Origin: Daucus carota subsp. sativus
Taxonomy: Eukaryota; Streptophyta; Magnoliopsida; Apiales; Apiaceae
Assembly (NCBI RefSeq): GCF_001625215.2
Contig: NC_030387.2
Coordinates: 39,455,606-39,519,605 of the forward strand
Reading direction: 5' to 3'
Length of the DNA stretch: 64,000 bases
Of this stretch, positions 15,851 to 64,000 are shown one piece after another. A program made the position numbers and the translations under genes. Each line of letters opens with the position of its first letter. The stretch's first letter is position 1. The notes below the pieces were generated by a model. That model was not told where the DNA came from. It was given only the letters and a program-made list of their open reading frames with translations, and searched no databases.

Positions 15851-16860
15851 TCTGAGAAAGAAATTGGAATTTTACAGTGTTTTTACAGGAATTAGGAGAG
15901 TTGTTCTCGATTTGTTTTAGGGCAACTATGACGTATTTTCGATTTTAAACTGAAAAATATTATTTATAATCTTTTTATTATTATTATTTATTTCGATTTT
16001 AAACTGAAAAATATTATTTATAATTTTTTTATTTGTATTATTTATAATTTTTTTTATTTTTATTTTTATATTTTTGGTAACTCATAAATCGTTAATAGGT
16101 CAAAATTACTCGTATTTATATTTTAAACTCCAAACTTATCACATAAATCACATTAAATCATAAATTATAAACTCAGCCAATCGATTCCCACACTCTTTTG
16201 AGGATAACTTTCTTTGTTTCTGTTGGTAGGCTTGTTAACCAAGTACTAATTACAGAAATTGGAATGAATCACGGGACATGATCTATTTTTGAATTGGCTT
16301 GGGAAGTAAAAAAGACAAGTGCATATTTTCTTAGGACTTCTGAGCATAAATTAAAATTCTGATTCTTGGAGAGTAACTAATGCAGGGCTAATATTCTTGT
16401 CGCTAATGAAGAAATTTTATCTAATGGAAGCCGACTTAAAGATTGTAATTTCACAAAATTTCATGCATATCTGATTGGCGAAATGCGTCGTTTTCTTTCT
16501 TATTCAGCAAGTTCTTGGTGCATTATAGAATACCTTGTATCTCCCTCCCACAGCGTCGTTAAGCAGTCACTTTCATGTTGACTGATAGCGAAATTCTTGT
16601 TACTGAAAACTCAGAGTAGTTGTTGACTAGTATTGCAGCTAATAATGCTGAAGATTTAACAATGTATCATGTTTAGCGTGTTATGAAATGCTGTCGTGAT
16701 ATTCTGGTCTGACACTGAAGTCTCACTGTCATTTGCATAAAAAAATCAAGTAGACAGCGTTCGCGATATTCTATTAATACATGAAACTGTCAGTGTTTAG
16801 AAGATCAAATTCTAGCGATTCTCTCCTAAACACAGATAAGTGAGACCAAAGAGAAACAGG

Positions 16861-18574
16861 ATGGAGTTTTTAAGACCACTGCAGCAAGAAGATGCAAGAA
16901 TGTTGTTAAAAGATCTTCTCTTTGCACTTCTTGTATTAATCCTTTTACTCTTTCTCGTCAAATGGCTAATCTTTAATGCCTCAGTGAGGAAGAAAAATTT
17001 GCCACCTTCACCAGCAAGACTCCCTGTACTAGGGAACTTCCATCAACTAGGACTACTTCCACACCAGAGTCTCCGAGCTATGGCACAGAAGCATGGCCCC
17101 GTCATGCTTGTTCACTTTGGTAGTGTGCCTACTATTGTGCTCTCCTCTGCTGATGCAGCCCGTGAAGTTATGAAAATTCAGGACATTGCCTTCTGTGACA
17201 GGCCTGAATCGAGTATTGGCAGACGATTGCTCTATGACATGAAGGATATATCTGTGGCGCCTTATGGAGAGTACTGGAGGCAGCTGAAAAGCATCTTTGT
17301 TCTCCAGATAGCAAGCAACAAAAGGGTGCAGTCATTTCGTAACTTAAGAGAGGAAGAAACAGGCCTTATGATGAGCAAGATTAAAGACATGTCTTCTTCG
17401 TCGTTACCTGTGGATCTGAGTGAGTTGTTTTTGACACTGACCAATGACGTATCCTGTAGGTCTGCATTCGGAAGGAAGTACAGCGAAGAGGGGAACGGAA
17501 GGGAATTCAAAAGATTATTGAGGGAGTTTCTGGAGTTACTAGGTGCTCTTAGTTTCAGGGATTTTATCCCCTGGCTTGGATGGGTTGATAGAATTAGTGG
17601 CTTGGATGCTAGACTGGACAGAGTTTTTAGGCGACTTGATGACTTTCTTCAGGACGTCGTTCAAGAACACATAAGTGATCAAGAAATACAACTTGGTGAA
17701 AGCAACCTTCATGTTGAACATAAAGAAGACTTTGTTGATATTTTGCTCAGGATTCAGAAGGAAACCACTCATGGAATATCAATCGACGATGATAGTGTCA
17801 AGGCTGTCCTCTTGGTAAGAACTCACTGAAAACACTTATTCCTTTCTTCTGTTAAATTATATATGCATGTTATAAAGGCTGAAGTTTCAAGAATAGTTGT
17901 GTGAGTGTTAAAAATTCTGAAATTGGTACTATTTCTGAAACAAATTCTAAATTATATTTTAGGATATATATTCTGCTGGAACTGATACCACAGCTACAGC
18001 CCTGGAATGGGCAATGACAGAACTATTGAGGCACCCGGTTGTCATGAATAATGTGCAAAAGGAGGTCCGGGAAATTCTTGGCTCCAAACCTGATATAAAG
18101 GATGATGATCTGGAGAAAATGAAGTATCTGAAAGCAGTGATCAAAGAAACTCTTCGTCTGCATCCACCGGTACCCTTGTTGGTTCCCAGAGCAGCGCGCG
18201 AAGATGTGAAAGTAAACGGCTATGACATTGCTGCTGGAACAATGGTTATAACTAATGCCTGGGCTATAGGAAGAGACCCCGAGACATGGGACGAGCCTGA
18301 GGAGTTTCTGCCAGAGAGATTCCTAAATTCATCGATTGATTTCAAAGGACATGACTTCCAACTGATTCCATTTGGAGCTGGCAGACGAGGCTGCCCTGGA
18401 ATTGCTTTTGCTATGGCCACCAATGAATTTGTGTTGGCAAATCTTCTGCATAAATTTGACTGGAAGCTTCCAAATGGAACAACTGAGGAGAATTTGGACA
18501 TGTGTGAAAGCACTGGTGTCACAATTCACAGAAAAGTTCCTCTTCTTGCTGTTGCAGACCCGCGGATCGTGTGA
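16861..18574 (+). CDS. Cytochrome P450, CYP71A-like, intact
   Basis: A haem-thiolate monooxygenase anchored in the ER and fed electrons by P450 reductase; the substrate is unknown. Exons 16861-17814 and 17963-18574 (GT-AG, phase 0, at the intron position typical of the CYP71 clan) encode 521 residues, normal for the family. Visible are an N-terminal membrane anchor (about 16-38), the hinge LPPSP (47-51), helix I AGTDTT (323-328), ExxR as ETLR (380-383), PERF (435-438) and the haem loop [11 protein letters not shown] with Cys462. I chose the ATG at 16861 because the anchor follows at the usual distance and the tandem copy and the cluster member at 63334 start at comparable points. A TATA-like TTGCATAAAAAAA lies near 16734. 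The next gene is its pseudogenised tandem duplicate. Specialised metabolism is likely; subfamily assignment below CYP71A is uncertain. Confidence 0.93.
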
Positions 18575-19997
18575 AATTAGTATCAATGGTCCCTTTATGT
18601 TGTTTTATCTTTGTATTAACAAGTCAAATTTACCATTCAAATCTGTAACACCATCAAATCACTGCAGCGTTCGAAGTTACTGAGCTTATACAATGTGATT
18701 GCTGCTAATAGAATTGCATATCTTTTACCAACTCTGTAGATTTCTTAAATTTTTTAAGCTGTCATCACAAGTTTTTAAACATATGTGAAATAGTGACCGA
18801 TGACTTTGTGAAACCACCAAACATACTGTTGTTGCAGCATATGTTGTCTTCAGATTCTTGTCTGACCGGGAAATCTCACTATCATGTTGTATAAAAAAAA
18901 CACCTGGGAGACAGTTTTCTTGTTATTCTACTAATAAAAAAACTATCAGCATTAGGAGTATCAAATTCTGCAGATTCTCTGTACATACAATTTGACACCA
19001 TTTGTATAGCCTACAACAATTTAAGCACACACAAGCAACGCCAAAGAAGAGATATGATAGGTTTCTTACGATTACTACAGCAAGAAGAAGCAAGAATGTT
19101 GTTAAAAGACCTTCTGCTTGCTCTTCTTCCATCACTCCTCTTACTCTTCCTTGTCAAATGGCTATTCTTCAATGCCACAGTAAGCAACAAGAAGTTACCT
19201 CCTTCGCCATCAAGACTCCCGGTACTAGGGAACTTCCTTCAACTAGGACTTGTTCCACAGCGAAACCTCTGGTCTATGGCACCAAAACATGGCCCCTTCA
19301 TGCTTCTACACTTTGGTAGTGTACCTACTCTTGTGCTCTCCTCTGCTGGTGCAGCCCGAGAAGTCATGAAAGTTCAGGACATTATGTTCTGTGACAGGCC
19401 TGAATCGAGTGTTGGCAGGCGAATGCTCTACGACAGGAAGGATATATCTGCAGCGTCTTATGGAGAGTACTGGAGGCAGCTGAAAAGCATCTTTGTTCTC
19501 CAGCTTGGAAGCAACAAAAGGGTGCAGAAGAGAGAAGAGGAAACTGGCCTTATGATGAACAAGATTAAAGAAATGTCTGTTTCCTCGTTACCCGTGGATC
19601 TAAGCGAGTTGTTTTTGACACTAAACAATGACATATCGTGTAGGTCTGCGTTTGGAAGGAAGTACAGTGAAGGGGGGAAAGGGAGGGAATTTATAAAACT
19701 ACTGAGGGAATTTTTGGAGTTACTAGGTGCTTTTAGTTTCAGGGATTTCATTCCTTGGCTTGGATGGGTTGATCGAATCACCGGTTTGGATGCTAGACTG
19801 GACAGAGTTTCTAAGCAACTCGACGAGTTCCTCCAAAATGTTGTTCAAGAACACCTACATCTTGGTGAAAGCAACATTCAGACAGAACATAAAGAAGACT
19901 TTGTGGATATCTTACTCAGGATTCAAAAGGAAACTACTCATGGTATCTCAATCGACAATGATAGTGTCAAGGCTATCCTCTTGGTAAGATTTCCCTT

Positions 19998-20238
19998 CTC
20001 CCTCCGTTTCAATTTATCTTTAAAGAAAAAATTTGTTTCAAATTAGTTGTCCACTTCAACTTTTAATGCAAAATCATATTTTCAAAGTCAATTCTACTTC
20101 ACATATCTCTTATTTATATTTTCTAGATCAACCTCATTCCACATATTATGATAATTTAATACAATTAATCTGTGAACATTCACTTTTCTTAAACTGTGTA
20201 ATTTTTTGAAAGTGGACATCTATTTGAAACGGAGGGAG
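19998..20238. mobile_element. Stowaway MITE in the P450 pseudogene intron
   Basis: A 241-bp element with termini CTCCCTCCGTTTCAA and TTGAAACGGAGGGAG. The right flank is TA; the left flank TT suggests a decayed TA target duplication. Confidence 0.88.
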
Positions 20239-20275
20239 TATGCAAGTCTTGATACTAACTAATGATTATTTTATA

Positions 20276-20277
<2 letters not shown>

Positions 20278-20314
<37 letters not shown>
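20278..20314 (+). repeat. (TA)n expansion at the start of P450 exon 2
   Basis: About 18 TA units replace the GATATATATTCT of the intact copy, just after the splice acceptor. The length leaves the following codons out of phase with exon 1. Confidence 0.9.
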
Positions 20315-20317
<3 letters not shown>

Positions 20318-20898
20318 TGGTGGACTGATACGATGGCTACAGCTCTAGAATGGGTAATGACAGAACTCTTGAGACACCCGAATGTCATTAAAACTGCGCA
20401 GAAAGAGATCGAAGTTCTTGGTTGCAGAACTGATATAACGGATAAAGATTTTGAAAAAATGCAGTATCTGAAAGCAGTGATCAAAGAAACTCTCTGTCTG
20501 CATCCACCTGTACCCCTGCTAATCTCAAGATCAGCACGCGAAGATGTGAAAGTAAACGGCTATGACATTGCAGCTAGAACAATGGTTATAACTAATGCAT
20601 GGGCTATAGGGAGAGACCCCGAGACCTGGGACGAGCCAGAGGAGTTTCTGCCAGAGAGGTTCTTGAATTCCTCTATTGATATCAAAGGACGCGATTTTTA
20701 GCTGATTCCCTTTGGAGCTGACAGAAGAGGCTGCCCCGGAATTGCTTTCGCCATGGCCACCAATGAATTTGTGTTGGCAAATCTTCTGCATAAATTTGAC
20801 TGGAAGCTTCCAGATGGAACAACTGGGGAGAATTTGGACATGAGTGAAAGCACTGGTGTCTCAGTTTATAGACAAGTTCCTCTCCTAGCTGTTGCAAC

Positions 20899-46454: not shown

Positions 46455-48567
46455 ATGGGAGAAGTAAAAGGTAAATTAGGTTTGAAAGATGATGAGGTGA
46501 ATGTTGGCGGGAAGCAGGTGTGTGGCGAATTGTTTTATGTTGCTGATTTGTGTTCCAGTACGAAGCTTTATGAATTGTTCAATAACTTTGGTCGAGGAGT
46601 TGAATATGTTCGAGTTTGTATGGATCCAACTACAGGAAAATCACTTGGTTATGGTTATGTCAAGTACATTAAAGCTCAAGATGGTATGAACAATGTCATC
46701 AATTTCTTTATATTTATATAATAGGGTTTGTTGATCTATTCTAGTCCAGGCCTCTGAATTTAATATTATATAAGGCATGTTAGGGGGCGTTTAATTTAAT
46801 ATTTTCCCCTTTCCCCTAAAGATTCCCATGTTTCGATATAGATTTTTAAACAACATCGCACATCCATGATTCTCAGTTATAGCTAATGTCAACGTAGTCG
46901 TATTAAATTTAACAACTGAATATTAGCTTTATTATTGTTACTCATAATCACTTCTGACCGAATCAGAAATGAACTTTCACTTTTAGGTTATAGCCACCAC
47001 AACAGGTTAAGTCGGGTAAGGACATAAAAAGTAGACAAGTGTCTTGAGGGATTATCAGCTCTTGGCAGTGATTTGGTTAAGTTGAGTCTTGATAACAAGT
47101 AACATACAACTTTCATCACATGATGTCTAGGCAATGTCCTTGTAAGCCTCTGAATGATATTTAGGAAATACCATCGCTGTCTCATGCATAGCCTGCAATG
47201 ATGCCCAACAATTTGTTTGGTTTGATTTTGTAGAATTTTTCACTTGTTGGACCTAGAAGCACCATGACTTTCTGTGTTTCACATCTCAAATAAAAATACG
47301 GGTTTGAACTCAAGAGTTCCAAAGTTTTTTATGACGAGTCGCCAATTGGTGGTGATGAACATCAATTCCAAAATCTCAATACTTTATAAGCTAATAAATT
47401 TTTTTGTATTACAAGTTGTCATTCAGTACAACCCTGATTCTAAGTAATACTACCGCTTAAGTGATTGGATCCTCAACAAAGTATTTTATATTACTTTACA
47501 TATTTATAGCTACCTAATAATTACATTTGATACTCTAGCTGAACCTGAAGAAATATGGAATGAAATTTATACAGGTTTGCTTTTACACCATAAATGTATC
47601 TTATGACTCATACATGGTTTCGTGTTTTTTATTTAACGAATTTTGCGAGTTACAACACCAGTGAAGCTGAATATATATAAAAAAAAAATCATTCTACAAG
47701 GTCTTATGATTTAGTTCTACGGAAGAAGGATGTCTGCCACACCTTTGTTGTTGGTTACTATAAAATTGTTCCATCTGTTATATGCTAAAAACTAATTCTG
47801 TTCTAGGCACCTTGGGCCATCTGGAGTAAATTTAATAATTGAGATATGACATATGTTAAAAAATTAGTTGCGCCAAAGGTGTTATGAAAAATATCTGAAA
47901 TTGATCGTGTATTTGCTGTAATAATATTGTAATATATCATAATTGCACCTTATAAATATATCAATATAGATAAATTCTTAATAACTTTTAAGTGTGGTCA
48001 GCCTTAACATCAGCGTCTTTTCTTATTCCGGTACTCCCCATACCGTGCTACCTCATTTGTAAAAGTCTCCGGCAGCATTTTCTTGAAAAGTCGTATTAGA
48101 TTTTCTACCAATTAATTGCATTTGCATCTGTGCATTTCTTGCATCTGTATGGTATTACCGAAGTTTCACATGACTTGTTAATTATAATATTGAGTAGTTG
48201 CCCGGTCCCTTCAAGTATAGATAAAATGTGTAATGGTGAGCTTGATCAATTCATGACAGCTGCCAAGGCAAAGGAGATGCTAAATACACTTTTCTCAGTG
48301 GGAAAATTATTAGAGTGATGTTTTCTAATCGGGATCCTATCATGCGCGCAAGTCCTGGAAAAATATTTATCAAGGTATATATTATTCTATTCAAATTTAA
48401 GCTTTGTTGTCCCTGATCTTTGCTTTAGTACCTGATGAAGTTCAAATTTTGATACTACAGAATTTCGACAAGTCAGTTGACCACAAAGGACTAAATCACA
48501 CATTCTCTGGATATGGGAACATTCTCTCTTGCAAAATTGCTAAAGATTTTCCTGGTCAGTCAAAGCA
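46455..48567 (+). pseudogene. Poly(A)-binding-protein-like pseudogene (RRM1 and part of RRM2)
   Basis: PABPs bind poly(A) through four RRMs. Exon 46455-46683 starts MGEVKGKLG and carries RRM1: ELFYVADL (RNP2) and SLGYGYVKY (RNP1). Exon 48260-48374 continues in phase (AAKAKEML), then loses one base before GKIIRVMFSNRDP and FIK. Exon 48461 onward gives NFDKSVDHKGLNHTF and GNILSCKIAKDFPGQSK, the first half of RRM2. Homology stops abruptly at 48567, exactly where the left arm of the large inverted repeat begins; RRM2 RNP1, RRM3, RRM4 and the MLLE domain are absent. The frameshift and truncation indicate a pseudogene. Confidence 0.85.
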
Positions 48568-51500
48568 AAATTGCACAAGTCCTGGAAAATTATATATCAA
48601 GCAGGCTAAACATTATACTCCAAAAGCAACTGTGAGTCTTAATGTTAAACAACGTACCAAGTATCATTCATATGAAACTTATCTGTTGGAAATAGTGGAT
48701 GCATTAACTTGAAAGAGAATGCTTGTTATATCGTATCCAGTTGTAGTAAGGAATCAATATTATATTACTTGCATGGTTGTCACGTCGATAAGTCGAGTCA
48801 AGTCGATAGAGGTCCCGGCTTGTCGACTAGTCGGCTAGTCGTAGACTAGTCGAAAAGTTAATATTAATTAAATAAATATTATATATTAATTAATTAAATA
48901 TTATATATATTATACCACTCCAGTTCTCATATGTATATCGGTCACAAAATAGATATGCTAATTACAAACATGTGTCTTTTCCCTTTTCATGTACACACAT
49001 TAACATACTGATTGTACCTATATATAAACAATAATAAAAAAGATTATACTACATGTATATTCAGTTGTAATCAACTTATGCATACATAAAACATACACAC
49101 ATAAAGATCTATAAACTTAGATTAACATGTTGATTATTGCTGATTTTGAGCAGGTTTATAATTATTTTTTTTTCATTTTAATTTTTGATTGAATTTTGCA
49201 CTTGTCGACTGACTAGTCGACCAAGTCGACCGACTAGTCGATAAGTCGATCGATTAGTCGACCAAGTCGACTGACTAGTCGACAATTCACAAGTCGACCT
49301 CTCCGGTCGATTTTCTCAACCCGACTAGTCGACTAGTAGCGACTAGTCGAGCGCCGTGACAACAATGATTACTTGTCATTTATAGTGAATGTAAGTATTA
49401 GGATTACCATACTTATAAGTTTTAAAGTCTGTGTGGTAGGATTATGTCAGAGCCAAGTTCATGCACTGCATGCCTTTTCATTTTTCAAAAAAATAAGTAA
49501 AAAATCTTGGTTGCATCACTGAGTTCTCTTCAGTAGGAGTACAAGGTCACAAGGTTCTGCACAGTAGTGCTTGCATCTGCTTCTAAATTTCCAAGACACT
49601 TAAGTAAATAATTAGCTTTATCTTTCTGAGGTGGAGGATGTAGACCCGGAGGCCTGAATAGTATGCAATTATGCATACATACATGTAGACATATCCATGC
49701 ATTCTATACATACTATATATACGTCATATAAATAGCAAAATATGGTTTGGTGTTGTGCTAGCCATATTTTAACTTCTACAACTGTTGCTACTAGCAAAGG
49801 TTTTGGCAGTTTACCTGAAAAGTGAGGCTTATTGTAGGATTACCTGATATTCACATTATATGAACGGTCACACTTCGGGTGCAACATAGCCTTTTAAATC
49901 AGAATTATATACACAAAGCTTCATCGATATAAGCCTCTTTAATTTTAAGAATGAGAGGAATTGATGAACAGTATTATCATATTGAATATAATTACAATCG
50001 CTGAACAGTATTATTATATTGAATATAATTACAATTGTCTTTCTCCTTCGCCTTTTATTTAATTTTCAGGGTTCTGCCCTTCTTGTATCCCGAAAGTTTT
50101 CTTCTTTAATTATATATCCTATCTTCCAGATAATTTGTAATTTAAATTGCCTGAATTTGTAAGTTTCCCAATCTCAATTTAGTTTAGTTTTTTATTATAT
50201 AGGTTAATATCAGGTAATGCATACATGTATATGCATATCTAACTTCAAAGTTAAACATGGTACACAAAGGTTATATAGATAGGGATTGATACAGATGATT
50301 CATTCGTTACCCTCGAAATCATGTAGACTATGCATCGTTTATTGATTCATTTGTAATAGACTATAAATCTTGTTTAATCAGAGTAGAGATTTGAGTTTTG
50401 TACATAGAATAGACTATTAATATTGTTTAATCAAAGTGATTAGGTATTTGAGTCATTAATTCTGGTTGAATATATGTATATATTCTCTTGTTTCTTTCTT
50501 AAAGTTGTCTTACCGTAACATTTGTTTGATTGTGGGTTTGTTTTCTTATCAGAAATTTATAACGCCAGATTGTAGTTTTAAAAACATCCTCATGGGATTA
50601 ATGCCAATCACTCTCAAAGTAACCCCCGGAGATGAGGTTATTTTGGAGAACATTATTTTAGATGAGGACGAGAGAGTTGATCCTTTTATCATCAAGGTTG
50701 TACATAACTGACCCTCTCTATCTTTTATTTCCTGATTTATTCTACTTCACCTTTTCTTTTTAATTATGTTTCACCTTTTGACATTTTAATTCATTTGGAC
50801 CACCTCCATTTACAGGGTTTTCATGAAGAATTTAAAGATAAATATGTGTGCATATTTATGCTCCCCATGTCTCCTGGCCATAAGAAATCTATGATTCTTG
50901 ATACTACCAGGTTGAGGGACGTTCATGAGCAAATTAAGTCTTCTGGTGGAAATTTTAGTGTCATTTGTGTGCCTACACATATAGAGCATAATAAAAATGA
51001 TTTTGAATACTTCAATCCATACCATGAACACTTGAAGATCAAATTTTGCACTTCATTTCATCATATTCATCTCGATGATTCTGCATGCTTGAAGCAGATG
51101 GAGAATATGATTGGTATCCCGAAAGATCCGGAAGCAGCCTATGTTATCCTTGGTCCTATGAATGGTTCGTGCAGAAAGGTTGTCAGTATCCTTAATAGTG
51201 ACTTTTTCAAGTGGCATGGAGCTGATGCTTTTCCGTTCACCACAGAAAAGATAGAACAACTGACATGTGAGGATGAAGCTTTGTGGAGTTGCAAACATGA
51301 TCTTGGAACTCTTTTATCAGTGCCTGATCGTGATTATGTTATATCAAATGACTGCACAAAGGTACTTCCATCCCCTCGATGTGCCATGTGCATGAAAATT
51401 TAAAAGATCGAGGTCAGAAGCTTAACATAAAATAATATTAGGTTTAGCCTTTGCTCCAATTTAAACTTGACACGTGTAAAACTTGAATAAAAATAAGCGA

Positions 51501-51603
51501 GTTAAACTTAAGTCAGTAGAGTCAGATAATAACACTTCTTAGCAGTCATTTGTTTTCAACTTAATATAACTATATAAATAATTTTTTTTGAATATTGTTC
51601 TTA
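48568..51603 (+). repeat. Left arm of a 3-kb near-perfect inverted repeat
   Basis: The arm (3036 bp) is matched in reverse complement by 51631-54653 (3023 bp), with a 27-bp spacer at 51604-51630. It carries a TIR element, about 1.1 kb of non-coding DNA and two exons of the nucleoredoxin-like gene. The arms differ by scattered single bases and small indels; the two coding exons differ at about five amino acids, so identity is near 99 percent by eye. Confidence 0.95.
48777..49363. mobile_element. TIR element made of TCGACTAGTC motifs (left-arm copy)
   Basis: The ends GTTGTCACG and CGTGACAAC are inverted repeats. Both subterminal zones are dense in GTCGAC and ACTAGT palindromes (48785-48860, 49200-49355), and the middle is AT-rich. 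The matching copy lies at 53874-54445 in the other arm. Confidence 0.7.
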
Positions 51604-54600
51604 GATAGGATAATTGAGTCATTCTTTCTTTAAGAACAATATTCAAAAAAAATTATTTATATAATAGTTATATTAAGTTGAAAACAAATGACTGCTAAGA
51701 AGTGTTATTATCTGACTCTACTGACTTAAGTTTAACTCGCTTATTTTTATTCAAGTTTTACACGTGTCAAGTTTAAATTGGAGCAAAGGCTAAACCTAAT
51801 ATTATTTTATGTTAAGCTTCTGACCTCGATCTTTTAAATTTTCATGCACATGGCACATCGAGGGGATGGAAGTACCTTTGTGCAGTCATTTGATATAACA
51901 TAATCACGATCAGGCACTGATAAAAGAGTTCCAAGATCATGTTTGCAGCTCCACAAAGCTTCATCCTCACATGTCAGTTGTTCTATCTTTTCTGTGGTGA
52001 ACGGAAAAGCATCAGCTCCATGCCACTTGAAAAAGTCACTATTAAGGATACTGACAACCTTTCTGCACGAACCATTCATAGGACCAAGGATAACATAGGC
52101 TGCTTCCGGATCTTTCGGGATACCAATCATATTCTCCATCCGCTTCAAGCATGCAGAATCATCGAGATGAATATGATGAAATGAAGTGCAAAATTTGATC
52201 TCCAAGTGTTCATGGTATGGATTGAAGTATTCAAAATCATTTTTATTATGCTCTATATGTGGAGGCACACAAATGACACTAAAATTTCCACCAGAAGACT
52301 TAATTTGCTCATGAACGTCCCTCAACCTGGTAGTATCAAGAACCATAGATTTCTTATGGCCAGGAGACATGGGGAGCATAAATATGCACACATATTTATC
52401 TTTAAATTCTTCATGAAAACCCTGTAAATGGAGGTGGTCCAAATGAATTAAAATGTCAAAAGGTGAAACATAATTAAAAAGAAAAGGTGAAGTAGAATAA
52501 ATCAGGAAATAAAAGATAGAGAGGGTCAGTTATGTACAACCTTGATGATAGAAGGATCAACTCTCTCGTCCTCATCTAAAATAATGTTCTCCAAAATAAC
52601 CTCATCTCCGGGGGTTACTTTGAGAGTGATTGGCATTAATCCCATGAGGATGTTTTTAAAACTACAATCTGGCGTTATAAATTTCTGATAAGAAAACAAA
52701 CCCACAATCAAACAAATGTTACGGTAAGACAACTTTAAGAAAGAAACAAGAGAATATATACATATATTCAACCAGAATTAATGACTCAAATCCCTAATCA
52801 CTTTGATTAAACAATATTAATAGTCTATTCTATGTACAAAACTCAAATCTCTACTCTGATTAAACAAGATTTATAGTCTATTACAAATGAATCAATAAAC
52901 GATGCATAGTCTACATGATTTCGAGGGTAACGAATGAATCATCTGTATCAATCCCTATCTATATAACCTTTGTGTACCATGTTTAACTTTGAAGTTAGAT
53001 ATGCATATACATGTATGCATTACCTGATATTAACCTATATAATAAAAAACTAAACTAAATTGAGATTGGGAAACTTACAAATTCAGGCAATTTAAATTAC
53101 AAATTATCTGGAAGATAGGATATATAATTAAAGAAGAAAACTTTCGGGATACAAGAAGGGCAGAACCCTGAAAATTAAATAAAAGGCGAAGGAGAAAGAC
53201 AATTGTAATTATATTCAATATAATAATACTGTTCAGCGATTGTAATTATATTCAATATGATAATATTGTTCATCAATTCCTCTCATTCTTAAAATTAAAG
53301 AGGCTTATATCGATGAAGCTTTGTGTATATAATTCTGATTTAAAAGGCTATGTTGCACCCGAAGTGTGACCGTTCATATAATGTGAATATCAGGTAATCC
53401 TACAATAAGCCTCACTTTTCAGGTAAACTGCCAAAACCTTTGCTAGTAGCAACAGTTGTAGAAGTTAAAATATGGCTAGCACAACACCAAACCATATTTT
53501 GCTATTTATATGACGTATATATAGTATGTATAGAATGCATGGATATGTCTACATGTATGTATGCATAATTGCATACTATTCAGGCCTCCGGGTCTACATC
53601 CTCCACCTCAGAAAGATAAAGCTAATTATTTACTTAAGTGTCTTGGAAATTTAGAAGCAGATGCAAGCACTACTGTGCAGAACCTTGTGACCTTGTACTC
53701 CTACTGAAGAGAACTCAGTGATGCAACCAAGATTTTTTACTTATTTTTTTGAAAAATGAAAAGGCATGCAGTGCATGAACTTGGCTCTGACATAATCCTA
53801 CCACACAGACTTTAAAACTTATAAGTATGGTAATCCTAATACTTACATTCACTATAAATGACAAGTAATCATTGTTGTCACGGCGCTCGACTAGTCGCTA
53901 CTAGTCGACTAGTCGGGTTGAGAAAATCGACCGGAGAGGTCGACTTGTGAATTGTCGACTAGTCAGTCGACTAATCGATCGACTTATCGACTAGTCGGTC
54001 GACTTGGTCGACTAGTCAGTCGACAAGTGCAAAATTCAATCAAAAATTAAAATGAAAAAAAAATAATTATAAACCTGCTCAAAATCAGCAATAATCAACA
54101 TGTTAATCTAAGTTTATAGATCTTTATGTGTGTATGTTTTATGTATGCATAAGTTGATTACAACTGAATATACATGTAGTATAATCTTTTTATATATTTG
54201 TTTATATATAGGTACAATCAGTATGTTAATGTGTGTACATGAAAAGGGAAAAGACACATGTTTGTAATTAGCATATCTATTTTGTGACCGATATACATAT
54301 GAGAATTGGAGTGGTATAATATATATAATATTGAATTAATTAATATATAATATTTATTTAATTAATATTAACTTTTCGACTAGTCTCCGACTAGTCGACA
54401 AGCCGGGACCTCTATCGACTTGACTCGACTTATCGACGTGACAACCATGCAAGTAATATAATATTGATTCCTTACTACAACTGGATACGATATAACAAGC
54501 ATTCTCTTTCAAGTTAATGCATCCACTATTTCCAACAGATAAGTTTCATATGAATGATACTTGGTACGTTGTTTAACATTAAGACTCACAGTTGCTTTTG

Positions 54601-56776
54601 GAGTATAATGTTTAGCCTGCTTGATATATATTTTTCCAGGACTTGTGCAATTTCTTAGCAGTCAGATAATAACACTTCTTAGCAGTCATTTGTTTTCAAC
54701 TTAATATAACTATATAAATAATTTTTTTTGAATATTGTTCTTAAAGAAAGAATGACTCAGTTATCCTATCTAAGGGCAGGAGCCTGCCCTGATTTGCCTA
54801 GTTTCAGATTAGTTGCCCTTTATACCAACTATTCAAGTTGATTCCACTGGCGTGTCTCGACAAAGTAAAAGAACATATCTGTAGATACAGCACAACTCAT
54901 TTTTGGTTTTTCTTCCTTCTATCTGCTCTGCCATCAAGCATACTGCATACACCTATGACTTACCACATCAGTCTCACTTCCTCCCAATGTATACATACAA
55001 TTTACATATATAAACTAGATTTTATTCTTTAAGGTAAGATGTATACACAAATAACAAATTCATGATTAAATACCTAGATAAAATAAGAACCCAAGGCTGA
55101 TAGCCTTCTTGCAACGTGTGCTGAATATACTAAAGGGGGTACCATGTGTCTACACAATACGCTGCTGGGTAAAATGTATAACATCTTTAATAGTTCTCTT
55201 GCAATGACATTTCTAAGCGTATAACCTCTGAATCAGGCATCAGGGTAGAAAAAAAGAACATGTGCATATACGTTGGAGAAGCGTCTATTGGTGGTAAGCT
55301 CGTGTCAGCTGCGTGTTGCATAGGCATTTTAGTACATCAGCACTGCCACCGGGTATTTTGGCATTAAAATTTTGAAATTTGGTTATTTAGGTCATTCACT
55401 CGGTTTTAAACTTATGTATACATAACGTTTCTATATTTTTGATACTTAAAGGTAAGTATCTTTTCTTACCAAATTCTGTATTAGGTGCTCTTTTATTATA
55501 ACATTATAGAGTAATGTGATGATTAAGTTTTTTTTCATAGGCATTAATACAATAAAGAATATGTATTTGTATCATTTCTTTATTTATGCAATATTCTTTG
55601 CTAGATAATGACATTCTGGATAATATGTGTATTAATAGTATTATGCACAATAGTTTACATATTCTTTGCATATTCTGCTATCTTCATAGTTTTATTAATG
55701 GAATCAATTTAGGTCCCTGTTTCCGATCTACATCAAAGGACTGTTTGCCTCTTATTCTATGAAGATACTTTGGAGTGTAGAAATTGGACGGAGAAACTTA
55801 AGAATCTTTACGTAGTACGTAATGATTTTGAAGTGGTGGTTGTCTTCTCCATTACTTTTGGGCTTGGTCACTCGATGGAATTCAAGAATCGGAGACGCGC
55901 CTTAAAATTTTGGAAGGTGTTCAGTGACATGCCATGGTTGGCAATCCCTCTTGATGACCCCAAATGCAGGCAGCTGTGGCGCATTTTCAGTAAACAGTGC
56001 AGTGAAAAGTTGCTCATAATTTACTCTAGAGGACAATACTTTGAGGAAAATGGATTCAAAGTTCTGGTGGAGACTGGATTTAAAAAATATCCTTTTATGA
56101 GAAAGGAAGTGGTGCGGACTTCAGTTGCAGCAAAAAAAGAAAAGAACTTGTCCTCATTTTTGGGACGAAATGAACTTATTCGTGGTAGGGATTTGTATTA
56201 TGCTGGACGGGTCAGTTCTCTATATCGATCGTCATTATAATCATTTTTCTTTATGCATACTATTTGCTTGTTAACACTATGTATTTGTCCATGCAGGAGA
56301 AATTTACAGCCTCCAAACTCTTGGGATGTTCAGTTGTCCTCCTTTTTTTGGGAGTATCAGGCTTCAGAGGCTTTAGTGACTTGCTGAATGGGCTACATTT
56401 TAATCACGGAGTTACCGCCCATGGTGTTGAAAGTTTTGAGATAGTTTACATTCCAGTGACGGAATCTCCCCCTGAGATTGTCCCTGACTGTGACTGGATG
56501 CTGGTTAGCCCCAAGGAGCACTTGATTCCTGTTTTTCATCACTTTTTTGATGACGAAATTACAAAAAATCCAGGAAAACAATTCACCATGGCGATGGTTA
56601 GTTTTGGACAGTTTGGACATTATAATCATCGTGGAATCATCTATACCAACTGTTCCAAGGACGCATATAACTTATTTTTGGAGACCTTCCCGTTTAATGA
56701 CAACGATGACAAGGAAAGCTTCAAAGTTCTATATAATGCTGCAATAAACAAACCAAGAAAGAAGACGGATGATTAG
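50553..56776 (+). CDS. Nucleoredoxin-like multi-thioredoxin-fold protein (four exons, 5' end unresolved)
   Basis: Exons 50553-50696, 50816-51361, 55713-56210 and 56297-56776 join in phase 0 with GT-AG introns and give 555 residues without a stop. Upstream exons or the true start are not identified. Recognisable nucleoredoxin features are HGADAFPFTTEKIEQL and DRDYVISND closing one domain, VPVSDLHQRTV opening the next, MPWLAIP (about residue 305) and GFKKYPFMRKEVV. The redox WCxxC is absent: the aligned position reads LECRNW, with a single Cys near residue 252. It is thus unlikely to be a disulfide reductase. The last exon keeps a thioredoxin-like strand pattern (SFEIVYIPV) and also recalls sieve-element-occlusion proteins. 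Intron 3 (51362-55712) contains the whole right arm of the inverted repeat. It may be a working gene or a recently trapped one. Confidence 0.65.
51876..52684 (-). pseudogene. Inverted copy of two nucleoredoxin-like exons
   Basis: The exons correspond to 52684-52541 and 52421-51876 on the minus strand, with splice sites preserved. Reading frames are intact and differ from the sense copies by DPS/DPF, SMV/SMI, VPP/VPT, HLE/HLK and KRM/KQM at five positions. There are no downstream exons on this strand, so only a truncated protein could arise. They lie antisense in intron 3 of the sense gene. Confidence 0.85.
53874..54445. mobile_element. TIR element made of TCGACTAGTC motifs (right-arm copy)
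   Basis: Inverted counterpart of 48777-49363, duplicated together with the arm. Same GTTGTCACG/CGTGACAAC ends. It shows a few deletions within the GTCGAC-rich zone relative to the left copy. Confidence 0.7.
54657..54773 (+). repeat. Third copy of the inverted-repeat centre
   Basis: The segment repeats left-arm sequence 51519-51603 in direct orientation. It is followed by AAGAAAGAATGACTCAGTTAT, the complement of the 27-bp spacer with one change. It marks the outer junction of the right arm. Confidence 0.9.
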
Positions 56777-58071: not shown

Positions 58072-58545
58072 AGATAACGATTTGGAGAAAATGCAGTATC
58101 TGAAGGCAGTGATCAAAGAAACTCTTCGTCTGCACCCTCTAATACCCTTGTTGGTTCCCAGAGCAGCGCATGAAGATGTGAAATTAAACGCTATGACATT
58201 GCTGCTGGAACAATGGTTATAACTAATGCCTGGCCTATTGGAAGAGACCCTGCAACATGGAAGGAACCAGAAAAGTTTCAGCCTGCAGAGAGGTTCTTGA
58301 ATTCCTCTATCGATTTTAAAGGACAAGATTTTCAGTTGATTCCTGCCCCATAATTTCTTTTGCCATGGCTACCAATGAATTTCTTTCTGTTGGCAAATCT
58401 TTTGCATAAATTTGACTGGAAGTTGCCTGACGGAAGAAATGGGGAGGATTTAGACATGAGTGAAAGACCCCGTGCAGCGAAAAGTTCCACTTCAACTTCA
58501 TGTTGCTGCCAGTGTACCTGAAAAAATCAAGACTATTAGATGATG
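58072..58545 (+). pseudogene. CYP71A-like P450 C-terminal fragment with the haem loop deleted
   Basis: The segment starts inside exon 2 ([21 protein letters not shown], so ExxR is present). It runs through [14 protein letters not shown], loses one base, then [20 protein letters not shown] and [19 protein letters not shown]. The family's FGxGRRxCPG loop is gone; [10 protein letters not shown] follows after a short scar at about 58345. Further shifts break the end. The upstream exon and I helix are missing. Confidence 0.9.
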
Positions 58546-58857
58546 GTGTTGAATTTTTATAAAGAAGATAGCATCTTCACCATTAAAATACATGTCTTCT
58601 GAATTATTGTGCTTATCTGATATGTGTGATTTCGATAGAATGGTGTCAGCTAAGCCAAAATAAGTTCAGACTTCTAAATTGTCATCTTTTTCTTATTTCA
58701 GACTAGGAAACCATACACCTTTTTTCAAAGTCAAGGCCGCTGATTAGGAAAACAAGAGAGTAATTATGTGCCACTAATTGGTGATAAGATGTAACTTCAA
58801 ACTTCTCACTCTATTCATCCACTAACACATACAGATAACAGAAAAGAAGGAAACATA

Positions 58858-59151
58858 ATGGTTTTCATACAAGGAGAAGCAAGATTGTTGTTGCAAGACC
58901 TTATGGTTGCTCTTATACCAATAATCGCCTTCCTCTTATTCATCAAATGGGTTTTTCTTAATGCCCCATTGAGCAAAAACAAGTTGCCACCGTCACCATC
59001 AAAACTCCCAGTGCTAGGAAACTTCCATCAACTAGGACTGCCTCGAGCTTTGGCTCAAAAACATGGTCCCATTATGCTTCTTCACTTTGGCAGTGTGCCT
59101 ACTCTTGTACTTTCCTCTGCGGATGCAGCCCGTGAAGTCATGAAAGTCCCA
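58858..59151 (+). pseudogene. CYP71A-like P450 N-terminal fragment truncated by TRIM-like sequence
   Basis: ATG at 58858 begins [15 protein letters not shown], a membrane anchor, [18 protein letters not shown] (with a small deletion after it) and AAREVMKV. At 59152 the P450 sequence stops and TRIM LTR-like DNA begins. The nearest relative is the gene at 63334, which shares leader and N-terminus. The preceding spacer also resembles the spacer before 63334. Confidence 0.92.
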
Positions 59152-59208
59152 CGTCGATTGTGAGAGGGGCAGAAAATTAGAATATAAGAAGCTAGAATAA
59201 CTCCAAAA
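59152..59208 (+). mobile_element. TRIM LTR-like fragment at the P450 breakpoint
   Basis: CCACGTCGATTGTGAGAGGG and the following AGAATATAAG...AACTCCA align with the LTR of the complete TRIM at 43095-43150. The LTR terminus TGTT is not present, so the piece is truncated or rearranged. Confidence 0.6.
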
Positions 59209-59843
59209 ATTATCTTGTGGAGTTGTGAACATCTAAATTCGGGGAAATAACATTTTTTAACAATGTAAACTCAGGAAAATTTGATCCATGTTAAAATTTG
59301 GCACAATGATGGATCAGACTTTCGTTTCATGTAATACTCGGGAAAAATATTAAACATATTTTTGATGAATTTTCTTCCTTGTGGGGCCTTGGTGTTTCGT
59401 TCAATTGTTATCGAACTTGAGTTTCAATAATTCAGGAAACAAATTCCAATAAGTGGGCAACTGTTTAACTTATTTACCCACCAGCTATGAGTTGATACAA
59501 TTGGAATTAGTATGTGGTGCAGAAGTGGCCACGAATTTTCAAATATTATTTTATTATAATTTATAGTTATAATATATGTTTTAATAATTTTAAAAAAGGA
59601 TATAACATAATTGTTGAGATTTTTTATATTTATTTATAATTTTTTAAAAATATTATAGAAATAAATATTAATTTGTTGTTCATAAATATTGGAACTTGAT
59701 TTTTTTATGATTTTTTTAACTGTATATCTCATGATTTTCATCGATTGAGTTTATCAAATTAAGGTTATACAAACAATAATTATGTCCGGATACTATATTT
59801 TGATATAGATTAGAATGTCCGACAACCGCTTAGACAAAAACTA

Positions 59844-60638
59844 CTCCCTCTTGAAATGGGTTAATTATCTAGTTGGTCACTGAAATGGGCTTAATGTATC
59901 AAGTTGGTCACTGAACTGAAAACGGTATCAAGATGGTCACTAAAATCACCATAAATGTCAAACAAGTACCTTGAAATATGAGTTCAGGCAATAAAAATAT
60001 TATTTATAGAGTTTTACACATCACTTTTAAATGTTACCACAACCAACTAAAATGTTATTACTTCTAGTATTTATAATAACATATTTAGATTTTATCAAGT
60101 TTATCTATTATTTATTTTTTATTATATAGTTATTTTCTTTGTTTTAATTAAAAATAAAACATAAATAAACTTGAAAAAAAATCTAAATAGATTATCATAA
60201 ATACTAGAAGTCATAACCTTTTAGTTGGTTGTGGTAACATTTAAAAATGATGAGTAAAACTCTATAAATAATATTTTTATTGCTTGAACTCATATTTCAA
60301 GGTACTTGTTTAATATTTATGGTGACATTAGTGACCATTTTGATACCGTTTTCAGTTGAGTAATCAACTTGATACATTAAACCCACTTCAATGACCAACT
60401 TGATAATTAACCCGTTTTGAAATATAAGTCGTTTGACTTTTTGGCATACACTTCTAAGTCCCTTGACCGCATAGTTGAAATCATTATTTTTAAAATTTTC
60501 TTTTTTTTGAATAAAAATATATGATTAATATTATAATTCACACCAAGAAAATTTTAGAAATAATGATTTTTGCTATGCGGTCAAAAAAGAAAGTGTGTGC
60601 CAAAAAGTCAAGCGACTTATATCTCAAAACAGAGGGAG
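59844..60638. mobile_element. Stowaway-like MITE split by a nested insertion
   Basis: TACTCCCTC at 59842-59850 and GAGGGAGTA at 60632-60640 give Stowaway ends with TA duplication. Subterminal GTTTTGAAATATAAGTCG (60414 onward) pairs with CGACTTATATCTCAAAAC near the right end. The centre (60470-60600) is palindromic. The nested element 59859-60412 separates the left tip from the rest. Confidence 0.8.
59859..60412. mobile_element. Long-TIR foldback MITE (possibly Mutator-like) nested in the Stowaway
   Basis: The element is nearly a perfect hairpin: about 250 bp from GGTTAATTATCTAGTTGGTC pairs with the other half ending GATAATTAACC. Flanks CTTGAAATG and TTTGAAATA (or similar) suggest a 9-bp duplication, as in Mutator-like elements, but this is not exact. 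Confidence 0.75.
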
Positions 60639-60811
60639 TATTGAATTAAATCTAGCATCAAAATATGGGTTATAGCAAAGAACATTGCCCAACTTTTTTA
60701 GGAATAAAATTAACGTTATTAATATCAGCATTTGTAATCCTGAATCCCTGATAAATAATTGATACAATAATTTTGAGGGGATTTTCTGTCAAAAAAACAT
60801 GATTGGAGAAT

Positions 60812-60923
60812 CATTTTGTCAAGGATCTAAGTTCCTATTCTTTCTGCCTAACATAAGTTGGCACAAACATTTTGTCAAGGATCTAACTTCCTATTCTTTC
60901 TGCCTAACATAAGTTGGCACAAA
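60812..60923 (+). repeat. 56-bp tandem duplication upstream of the CYP71AJ-like gene
   Basis: Two copies start CATTTTGTCAAGGATCTAA at 60812 and 60868 and differ by one or two bases. They lie about 200-310 bp before the ATG at 61121. Confidence 0.9.
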
Positions 60924-61120
60924 ATTTGTCTTCACTCTTGAGGTCACTGACTTTGATTCTCTGGACACGCCGGGAATAAGTGGGCTACCAATCTCGGAAT
61001 ATGAGTTTGCAAGTATGCCCAAACTGACTCGGAATAAATATTCATCTCTCCCAGCTCTCATAGGCAATTTTATCTTCCATCTCCCATCCTTCTGAGATTT
61101 TTCTCAGCCAAGTACCAGCA

Positions 61121-62822
61121 ATGAAGATGATGGAGCAATATAGCTCAATCCCATATTTCCTTACATTTTTTTCTGTCACAATTTTTCTCTACAAATGGTT
61201 AACAAGAAAAACAGCCTCAGAAAATCTTCCACCTTGTCCACCAAAACTTCCTATAATAGGAAACCTTCATCAAATTGGTCCAGTCCTGCACATTTCACTG
61301 CGATCCTTGGCTCAAAAATGTGGTCCATTGATGCTACTTAACTTCGGAAGGGTGCCTTTTCTGGTTGTTTCTTCAGCTGATGCAGCTCGAGAGATCATGA
61401 AAACCCATGATCTGGCTTTCTCAGACAGACCTACTTCAAGCGTGTCCAGAAGAATTTTCTATAATGGTAGAGACGTGGGATTTTCGTGTTATAGTGAGTA
61501 TTGGAGACAGGTAAAGAGTACATGTGTTACTCAGCTCCTGAGTAGGAAAAGAGTTCATTTATTTCAGAATGTCAGAGACGAAGAAATAGCCATTATGATC
61601 CAAAATGTCAGAGATTCTCACTCAGAAATAGTAAATTTAAGCGAATTATTTTTTGGACTAACGGATAATGTAGTGTGCAGGGCTGCGCTAGGGAAGAAAT
61701 TTGGAAGGGGCGAAGGGGATTCTCATATTAGCCTGCTCTCGGAAATAACTGAGCTTTTAGCTCATTTCAGCAGCATAGGAGATTATATTCCATTGCTTTA
61801 TTGGGTTGATTGGCTCAGAGGTTTGAAGGGGAAGGTGAATAAAGTAGCCCTCGAGGTTGATGCTTTTCTGGAACGCGTTGTTAGAGATCATCAGAGTACT
61901 ATTGCTTCGGATAATGCTTCTACAAACAAGGACTTTGTATCCATTTTGCTTGAGATTCAGACGCAGGAAAAAGATACAGGCTTTTCTATTGATAAGGATT
62001 GTACTAAAGCTATTATCTTGGTAAGTAACAAAACTTCTCCCTTCAGAAAAACTGATCATCTGTTAGTTAATTTCTACACTCCTTTGCACATAAATGGTCA
62101 TCAGGGATTTGATGAGCTAGAATTGTAACAGATGAAAAGAAAATTAATTATTCTGTCTTTTACTCAGAAATCAGAATTGCTTCAATCATTTACCTGTTGC
62201 ATACTTCTTGCAGGATATGCTTTTCGCTGGAATTGAAACAACAGCAACAACTTTAGAGTGGACAATGGCAGCCCTGATAAAGAATCCGGATATCATGTTT
62301 AAATTGAAGAATGAGGTCCGAGAAGTAGGCAAAGGCAAAGCAGAAATAGAGGACTGTGATTTAGTCAAGATGGACTATCTGAAAGCAGTACTGAAAGAGA
62401 GCATGAGACTTCACATGACAGGTCCACTGATACTTCCTAGAGAAGCAAGGCAGGACGTAAACGTGATGGGGTATGACATTAAAGCCGGGACACGAGTACT
62501 CATCAATGCCTGGGCAATTGCAAGAGACCCTTCTGTGTGGGACAAGCCAGAAGAGTTTCGGCCTGAGAGGTTCTTGAATAGTCCTATCGACTACAAAGGC
62601 CTTCACTTCGAGTATCTTCCCTTTGGAAGTGGGCGGAGGGCTTGCCCTGGGAACCATTTTGCAACAGCCATTATTGAACTTGCAATAGCAAATATAGTTC
62701 AAAAGTTTGATTTTGAATTGCCTGATGGAGCAAGACTGGAGGATTTGGACATGACTGCTGTCACGAACATCAATATTCGAAAGAAATCTCCTCTCTTGGT
62801 GATTGCCACACCACATGTTTAA
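61121..62822 (+). CDS. CYP71AJ: Cytochrome P450, CYP71AJ subfamily-like (furanocoumarin pathway type)
   Basis: Exons 61121-62020 and 62214-62822 (GT-AG, phase 0) encode 502 residues. Features are a membrane anchor (about 11-26), the hinge [13 protein letters not shown] (36-48; PPCP instead of the usual PPSP or PPGP), helix I AGIETT (305-310), ExxR as ESMR (362-365), PERF (417-420) and the haem loop [11 protein letters not shown] with Cys444. The start [38 protein letters not shown] and the end [13 protein letters not shown] recall psoralen synthase (CYP71AJ1) and angelicin synthase (CYP71AJ4) of Apiaceae. These convert marmesin or columbianetin at the ER membrane. SRS5 reads MTGPLILP, so the substrate should not be assumed. 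It sits among CYP71A-like genes, is clearly different from them upstream, but shares 3'-flank sequence with them. The start is the first ATG of the frame. Confidence 0.88.
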
Positions 62823-63283
62823 TCACTCAAAATCTCCTGCTCAAGACTGCACAATAACAATAGGGAATGAAAATTTGGAGAAATTTTCTCTGTTTTAATG
62901 TCAAAATCAGCATCTCTTTTCTCAAAATCTATGTATTCCTCGACAAGAGATCAGATATCACCTTCACCATTCAAATCTGCAAAATCATGAACTCTGTAGT
63001 TTTGGAATTATTGTGCTTATATGATACGTTTGATGCTGATAGAATTGTTTCAGCTCAGCAAAAAAAAAAAAACTATTGTGCATAGAGTTACCAACACTAT
63101 TGCTGTCATATCAAGTATCTCCCTTCTAGATTGTCATATTTTTCTTATTTCAGACTTTGAAATTATACACTTCAAAGTTTTCAAAGTCAATGGCCCTTAT
63201 GAAAGGGAATAGAGAGTAATTCTAAGCCACCAATGCAATGATAAGATGAAACTTGAAAGCAATAGTCACTCTTCTCATCATTT

Positions 63284-63293
63284 ATTTATAAAC
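63284..63293 (+). promoter_or_regulatory. TATA box candidate of the last P450 gene
   Basis: TTATTTATAAAC lies about 45 bp before the ATG at 63334, on the leader side. The short distance would leave a very short leader. Confidence 0.35.
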
Positions 63294-63333
63294 AGACTTG
63301 CAGTAATTAACACATAAGAAAGAAAGAAATATA

Positions 63334-64000
63334 ATGGTTTTCATACAAGGAGAAGCAAGAATGTTGTTGCAAGACCTTGTGGTTGCTCTTATACCAATAA
63401 TCGCCTCGCTCTTATTCATCAAATGGTTATTTTTCAGTGCCCCAGTGAACAGAAAAAACTTGCCACCTTCACCATCAAGACTCCCAGTATTAGGAAACTT
63501 CCATCAGCTAGGACTGCTTCCTCACCGTAATCTTCAATCCTTGGCTCAGAAACATGGTCCAATGATGCTTCTTCACTTTGGAAGTGTGCCTACTCTTGTA
63601 CTTTCCTCTGCGGATGCAGCCCGTGAAGTCATGAAAGTCCAGGACCTAAAATTTTGTGACAGGCCTTCATCAAGTCTTTTGAGGCGTCTGCTGTATGACG
63701 GGAAGGATATATCCGTGGCACCTTATGGAGAGTACTGGAGGCAGCTAAAAAGCATCATCGTTCTGCAGCTTTTGAGCAACAAAAGGGTGCAGTCATTTCG
63801 TAGACTAAGAGAAGAAGAAACTGCCCTTATGGTGAACAAGATTAGAGACTTGTCCTCTTCTTCACTGTCCGTGGATTTAAGCGAGTTGTTTGTGACACTA
63901 AGTAATGATGTGTCCTGTAGGTCTGCGTTTGGGAAGAAGTATAGTGAAGACGGAAGTGGGAGGGAATTTAAGAAGCTTTTAAAGGAGTTTCTGGAGTTAT
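63334..64000 (+). CDS. Cytochrome P450, CYP71A-like, 5' part (runs off the window)
   Basis: An open frame of 222 codons runs from ATG 63334 to the window edge: [15 protein letters not shown], anchor, [49 protein letters not shown] (helix C WRxxR-type region), KRVQSFRRLREEE and [12 protein letters not shown]. No lesion is seen. It is closest to the genes at 16861, 19054 and 58858. Exon 1 should continue about 95 codons beyond the window, and the haem domain is not visible. The start is fixed by the shared leader and N-terminus of the 58858 fragment. Confidence 0.93.
   Translation, partial: MVFIQGEARMLLQDLVVALIPIIASLLFIKWLFFSAPVNRKNLPPSPSRLPVLGNFHQLGLLPHRNLQSLAQKHGPMMLLHFGSVPTLVLSSADAAREVMKVQDLKFCDRPSSSLLRRLLYDGKDISVAPYGEYWRQLKSIIVLQLLSNKRVQSFRRLREEETALMVNKIRDLSSSSLSVDLSELFVTLSNDVSCRSAFGKKYSEDGSGREFKKLLKEFLEL

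Follow-up and report, generated by a model that had tools for sequence, protein, structure and literature searches.

For plant Dicer-like (DCL) enzymes, long inverted repeats that are transcribed serve as standard substrates, and the Arabidopsis inverted repeat IR71 yields about 3 kb of double-stranded RNA (dsRNA) that is cut by DCL2, DCL3 and DCL4, with small interfering RNAs (siRNAs) measured (PMC12825306). In the Arabidopsis accession Cvi-0, the VIM4-VIM2 inverted repeat, with a separation of 50 bp, gives siRNAs that act in cis and in trans (PMC13213937), and perfect hairpin transgenes silence themselves through methylation in the repeat and the adjacent promoter (PMC9263138). Here, a 6-kb palindrome is described from carrot (Daucus carota subsp. 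sativus), in a 64,000-nucleotide stretch of contig NC_030387.2 (GCF_001625215.2, positions 39,455,606 to 39,519,605; the whole stretch is called the window), where the first two recognisable exons of a nucleoredoxin-like gene are repeated in inverted form in an intron of the same gene. It is a known kind of inverted repeat with unusually legible birth marks. The reading we favour, and hold to be rather probable, is that of a genuine, young inverted duplication in carrot, whose siRNAs and RNA-directed methylation would dampen the gene in cis.

The carrot palindrome resembles VIM4-VIM2 as a natural variant with near-identical gene arms at a short separation (50 versus 27 bp), in which read-through would give a stem-loop. 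In VIM4-VIM2, however, two paralogues face each other with their 5' ends, and siRNAs, methylation and trans targets have been shown, whereas the carrot locus has a single gene whose partial copy lies tail to tail with it in the gene's own intron, and no close paralogue was present among the proteins listed. As in IR71, the repeat is long and natural and is a predicted substrate of DCL2, DCL3 and DCL4; the carrot stem predicted from DNA is probably about 1 kb long, in contrast to the ~3 kb dsRNA and measured siRNAs of IR71. Fold-back and template-switch duplications in yeast have a short inverted repeat at the turn, a loop of tens of bases and templated filler at a secondary junction (PMC7467729). 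All three features recur in carrot, but the product there is interstitial, measures 3.1 kb and lies in an intron of a plant, and the orientation of its spacer would imply that the strand switched over to the opposite one or that a finished palindrome was captured. Inverted duplications of this type reportedly occur in human as well. An origin by inverted duplication has reportedly been proposed for young MIRNA genes of plants (Allen et al. 2004), and the carrot locus likewise has an inverted coding copy as raw material for a foldback on its source gene. It differs in that its arms are 3 kb long and still coding, the copy lies inside the source gene, and no foldback of microRNA size was recognised.

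The palindrome was detected by blastn of the 64-kb window against itself, together with an ungapped repeat finder. Positions 48568-54653 matched their own reverse complement at 98.67% over 6109 columns, and the ungapped finder split the palindrome into four pieces of 96-99%. Between the arms there were 13 substitutions over 3017 ungapped columns, two of which are neighbours close to a 1-base indel and may count as a single event, and four small indels of 8, 1, 9 and 3 bases. Chance cannot account for a match this close over 3 kb. A methylation footprint was not readable in the 13 substitutions (7 transitions and 6 transversions), which are too few. The insertion comprises 51604-54743 (3140 bp) and lengthens the intron between exons 2 and 3 from an implied 1211 bp to 4351 bp. 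An earlier reading of this DNA (the original prediction) had described the same palindrome, and its arm ends (48568-51603 and 51631-54653) and 27-bp spacer were reproduced to the base. The antisense copies of the first two recognisable exons that it had placed in the right arm were also recovered, with splice sites intact in both arms. The right arm does lie within an intron of the nucleoredoxin-like gene, as proposed, yet this is the second intron (51362-55712) of the present model and not intron 3. A near-perfect inverted repeat with a short loop is the configuration of plant hairpin siRNA loci, and the carrot palindrome has it.

The junctions suggest how the palindrome was made. The old intron order is kept past the right arm, where 84 bases of the arm's inner end are found again in direct order beyond the palindrome (54660-54743, equal to 51520-51603), followed by 27 bases and then by TAAG. 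Bordered by CTTA and TAAG, the spacer agrees with those native 27 bases, once they are reverse-complemented, at all positions but one (26 of 27); the joint between the arms thus falls on a CTTA-N27-TAAG inverted repeat whose loop was kept as the spacer. A spacer flanked in this way bears the mark of a strand that switched, or folded back, at an inverted repeat of 4 bp. The filler TTCTTAGCAGTCA at the right outer junction repeats 51536-51548, after which the sequence resumes at 51520. Both signs of a template switch are therefore present, namely a short inverted repeat at the turn with a spacer between and templated filler at the exit. The left edge was read from homology segments of 120 query proteins, comprising 119 proteins with RNA-recognition motifs (RRM) and P0006, an RRM-bearing relative of the nucleoredoxin-like protein. 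Among the 162 segments ending past 48500, 160 stop at 48565, two bases short of the left arm, one stops at 48562 and one (that of P0006) at 48538. Both outer ends of the palindrome are thus joints at one arm coordinate, as if copying had run to a strand end at 48568; the left joint may instead be older and the coincidence of coordinates accidental. A block of about 26 bases from an RRM exon (48349-48375) is repeated at 48576-48602, just within the left arm's outer end, and is perhaps additional templated filler of an earlier step.

In the proposed sequence of events, a strand that had broken or stalled would have moved over to its complement at the 4-bp repeat, or folded back there; copying would then have run ~3 kb back to the strand end at 48568, and rejoining by microhomology end-joining would have closed the event. 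Plant genomes mutate at about 7e-9 per site per generation, and the 0.43% divergence of the arms would correspond, as an order of magnitude, to an age of roughly 0.3 million generations, and to less if the arms convert each other.

A second arm could also come from a fold-back read, a known fault of long reads, or from mis-joined haplotypes. A fold-back read predicts identical arms and a return to the left flank, whereas 13 sites and four indels differ here, the right side leads to exon 3, the old intron order is kept past the arm, and there is templated filler at the junction. The differences between the arms, the asymmetric flank and the filler thus disfavour an assembly artefact, which we consider very improbable. 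If the source is DH1, as we infer, allelic mixing would be excluded as well, DH1 v3 being an assembly of 440.7 Mb in nine chromosomes from a doubled haploid, made with PacBio and Nanopore reads (PMC10581907).

Table 1. Coordinates of the palindrome, its junctions, the nucleoredoxin-like gene and adjoining features in the window.
Feature	Position	Strand	Remarks
Palindrome left arm	48568-51603, 3036 bp	+	Outer end, hAT-like element, exons 1-2, intron start
Palindrome spacer	51604-51630, 27 bp	.	Reverse complement of native 54744-54770, 26/27
Palindrome right arm	51631-54653, 3023 bp	-	Inverted copy of left arm
Templated filler at right outer junction, TTCTTAGCAGTCA	54652-54664, 13 bases	+	Same letters as 51536-51548; microhomology overlap with neighbours
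Direct copy of left arm's inner end (51520-51603)	54660-54743, 84 bases	+	Continues at 54744 in old intron order
Native continuation after CTTA	54744-54774	+	27 bases, then TAAG; source of spacer
Exon 1, first recognisable coding exon of nucleoredoxin-like gene	50553-50696	+	GT, AG, homologue match
Exon 2, nucleoredoxin-like gene	50816-51361	+	AG and GT; P0001 100% from 50858
Exon 3, thioredoxin-like domain	55713-56210	+	PF13905 26.9 bits, cut-off 27
Exon 4, with stop codon	56297-56776	+	Splice-site and homologue reading
Antisense copy of exon 1, right arm	52541-52684	-	AG and GT intact
Antisense copy of exon 2, right arm	51876-52421	-	AG and GT intact, open reading frame
hAT-like small transposon, left arm	48772-49367	.	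Target duplication ATTACTTG, 8 bases, 48764-48771 and 49368-49375; ends CATGGTTGTCACG / CGTGACAACAATG
hAT-like element, right arm copy	53870-54449	.	Duplicated with arm; target duplications 53862-53869 and 54450-54457
Remnant of poly(A)-binding-protein-like RRM gene, cut at left edge of palindrome	46455-48567	+	RRM_1; 160/162 segments end at 48565

Fold-back elements typically have long inverted repeats, and each arm has a hAT-like element (Table 1), which would suit a palindrome made by a transposon, either as a miniature inverted-repeat transposable element (MITE) or through capture by a Helitron or Mutator-like element (MULE). However, no target duplication flanks the palindrome (flanks read by eye), the spacer is host intron sequence, and the hAT-like element is wholly enclosed in each arm, where a target duplication of its own flanks it, and is therefore older than the palindrome event. 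The genome, 441.1 Mb in 11 contigs, was searched with 48568-51600 as query. With 40 of 144 candidates scored, the search gave at least 58 matches, consisting of the two arms, 54660-54740 (81 bases, direct) and 55 within query positions 187-830, the transposon; a second genomic copy of the arm outside the transposon was not found among the candidates scored. In six other copies of the element, the target duplication was 8/8 in three, 7/8 in two and none in one (best of small shifts). The element belongs to a dispersed carrot family of hAT-like MITEs and was in the arm prior to duplication, and a transposon-made fold-back is the least credible of the explanations considered.

The query protein of the nucleoredoxin-like gene was spliced from 50574-50696, 50816-51361, 55713-56210 and 56297-56776, and all three introns of the model were GT/AG. 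Among 7996 candidates scored, 133 were homologues at an expect value (E) up to 0.001. The best of them, at 100% over 90% of the query, was P0001, "probable nucleoredoxin 1-2 isoform X1 [Daucus carota subsp. sativus]". The contig listed for P0001 has 41844801 bases, as has the one carrying the window, so its annotation was made on this very sequence. Pfam Thioredoxin_8 (PF13905) scored 26.9 bits, slightly under the 27-bit cut-off. P0001 initiates at a methionine within exon 2 and has the left-arm residues; exon 2 of the left arm matches it exactly, with the junction 51361-55713, while the right arm has four residue differences within the range of P0001. P0001 thus joins exon 2 in the left arm to exon 3 past the right arm, so that the predicted pre-mRNA would span the centre of the palindrome and the right arm. 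P0002, a relative at 78%, has 554 residues without an RRM part, comes from a 1.9-kb contig and starts near the beginning of carrot exon 1.

RNA of 50910-52325 folded into one long stem with few mismatches, at -1245 kcal/mol, which agrees with the original prediction that RNA of the locus could fold on itself. The hairpin of ~3 kb that it envisaged was not borne out, as a transcript starting near exon 1 or 2 would form a stem of ~0.75-1.05 kb (1051 bp from 50553, 907 from 50697 and 746 from 50858). Since P0001 starts in exon 2 and P0002 near exon 1, this is the better estimate; a ~3-kb hairpin needs transcription entering from the left of 48568, which could come from the truncated RRM gene at ~46.4 kb. 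Silencing of paralogues, a further part of that prediction, found no target: there was no close carrot paralogue among the 120 proteins listed out of 133 hits, nor in the genome search at 40 of 144 candidates scored. Among these 120, P0001 and P0085 were the only entries named as Daucus, and P0085, with 26% identity to the gene's protein, is too distant for siRNA.

A promoter in the left arm would drive transcription through the centre and, the arms being mirror images, would recur in the right arm in facing orientation, so that convergent transcription across the centre is expected. Both transcripts may fold into a ~1-kb stem with exons 1-2. While unspliced, the RNA would be cut by Dicer-like enzymes to 21-24-nt siRNAs confined to the arms' inner third, and methylation directed by RNA would dampen expression of the gene in cis. 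The right arm is lost when exon 2 is spliced to exon 3, so dicing and splicing would compete and some mRNA would still be made. Precedent makes siRNAs from the arms, and self-silencing, likely. Unlike a MIRNA gene, the locus has a near-perfect stem that is hundreds of bp long, and no short imperfect foldback of a recognised family was present. A microRNA or other known RNA family was also considered and rejected, as Rfam, for the families that it describes, gave 0 matches at gathering score across the 64-kb window. In the part of the inverted-repeat and small-RNA literature on carrot that was covered, nothing on this gene was met.

Six coding differences were found between the arms, five of which alter the protein. 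This fits the absence of constraint (556 nonsynonymous and 134 synonymous sites; binomial p = 1.0), although six changes are few. Residues were polarised with 22 aligned homologues, giving most weight to the closest, P0002 and P0003. The left arm was derived at F/S and I/V and probably also at Q/R (R in P0002-P0006, Q in several remoter rows), and the right arm at T/P, with the polarity of K/E unclear. Two, probably three, of the five protein changes therefore arose in the sense arm, and the antisense copy appears to decay no faster than the sense copy. Such a pattern would suit a real but inert variant, with the same strand-switch origin, at a locus barely transcribed or silenced and in neutral decay. 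Also in keeping with inertness, the annotated product begins in exon 2, as if exon 1 were unused normally, and a search with the right-arm frame matched 4 proteins only (one named, from Apium, and three unnamed; candidates 0.55-1.75 times its length), the best at 63% identity. On the other side, a carrot protein is annotated over the exon 2-exon 3 junction, and long transcribed inverted repeats are the usual substrates of plant Dicer-like enzymes (PMC12825306). We regard inertness as a real possibility, though short of an even chance.

Some of these observations, and others from the junctions, weigh against a young duplication that dampens its own gene. No annotated antisense product was seen, given the 63% best match of the right-arm frame. 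Both arms still have open coding frames and the sense arm has no fewer derived residues than the antisense arm, so there is no sign that the pair is in use, and no evidence was found of a selected function of the palindrome. P0001 is a database protein, with a predicted transcript. The match of P0006 at the left edge ends before the others. An in-place fold-back would leave the spacer reversed; its direction better fits an opposite-strand switch or a finished palindrome captured in either orientation.

The favoured reading, of a genuine young duplication dampening the gene in cis, can be carried one step further, to a self-targeting gene in which exons 1-2, inverted in their own intron with a mirror promoter, would form a splicing-gated switch, young enough that carrot may have alleles both with and without the insertion. 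We judge this extension unlikely.

On the left of the palindrome, where the truncated and unrelated RRM gene adjoins the outer edge, the rest of that gene is not in the arm, the sole arm matches being to the nucleoredoxin part of P0006. The RRM remnant has an apparent frameshift near 48280 (reading of the letters). In the search with the RRM protein, for which 120 of 1184 hits were listed, P0006 alone among these 120 had both RRM and PF13905 among its precomputed domains. P0006 (Heracleum) is annotated with RRM domains fused to a nucleoredoxin-like part, and may be either an RRM-nucleoredoxin fusion or a merged annotation. The start of P0003 resembles what we take to be the tail of an RRM.

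Among the relatives of the nucleoredoxin-like gene, CxxC was absent from 9 of 9 family members checked and from carrot P0085, unlike Lycium nucleoredoxin 1 (P0030), which has CGPC and CPPC. The family of the carrot gene seems, from these sequences, to have lost the redox motif. In a tree of 20 close relatives, four proteins (P0009, P0012, P0015 and P0018) belong to Orobanche minor or O. hederae and stand at three separate spots among Apiaceae rows, with at least three changes forced by the starred branches. None (0%) of 200 bootstrap trees had one change; two forks are open and the outgroup branches are long. The tree suggests repeated host-to-parasite gene transfer into Orobanche, for which contamination of the Orobanche assemblies would be an alternative.

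Elsewhere in the window, cytochrome P450 genes and fragments are repeated at 16846-20896 and 58073-63999. PF00067 was found in both frames tested (61064-62125 and 63307-63999), and the other P450 copies were recognised by DNA similarity. They may resemble the Apiaceae CYP71 enzymes of furanocoumarin synthesis. Two self-complementary stretches lie back to back at 59854-60417 (569 columns, 87.5%) and 60414-60630 (224 columns, 80.4%), and are probably MITE-like fold-backs. If the contig is chromosome 7 of DH1 v3, the window is ~0.27-0.33 Mb from chr7_39186121, the single-nucleotide polymorphism of the EX1 (Y2) carotenoid candidate (PMC10581907), a closeness that is probably coincidental.

Near-perfect inverted repeats are thought to be the raw material of plant siRNA loci and, later, of microRNA genes. 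Freshly made repeats with a readable birth are seldom available; in the carrot palindrome the turn point, the filler, a fossil of the former sequence and an approximate age can be seen. Even if inert, it would cleanly document how a plant gene underwent strand-switch repair. Should the gene be self-targeting, it would be the wild counterpart of a hairpin RNA interference transgene, in which unspliced RNA would give siRNAs against mRNA and promoter and spliced RNA would escape. If accessions with and without the insertion exist, the path from a DNA accident to silencing would be measurable directly.

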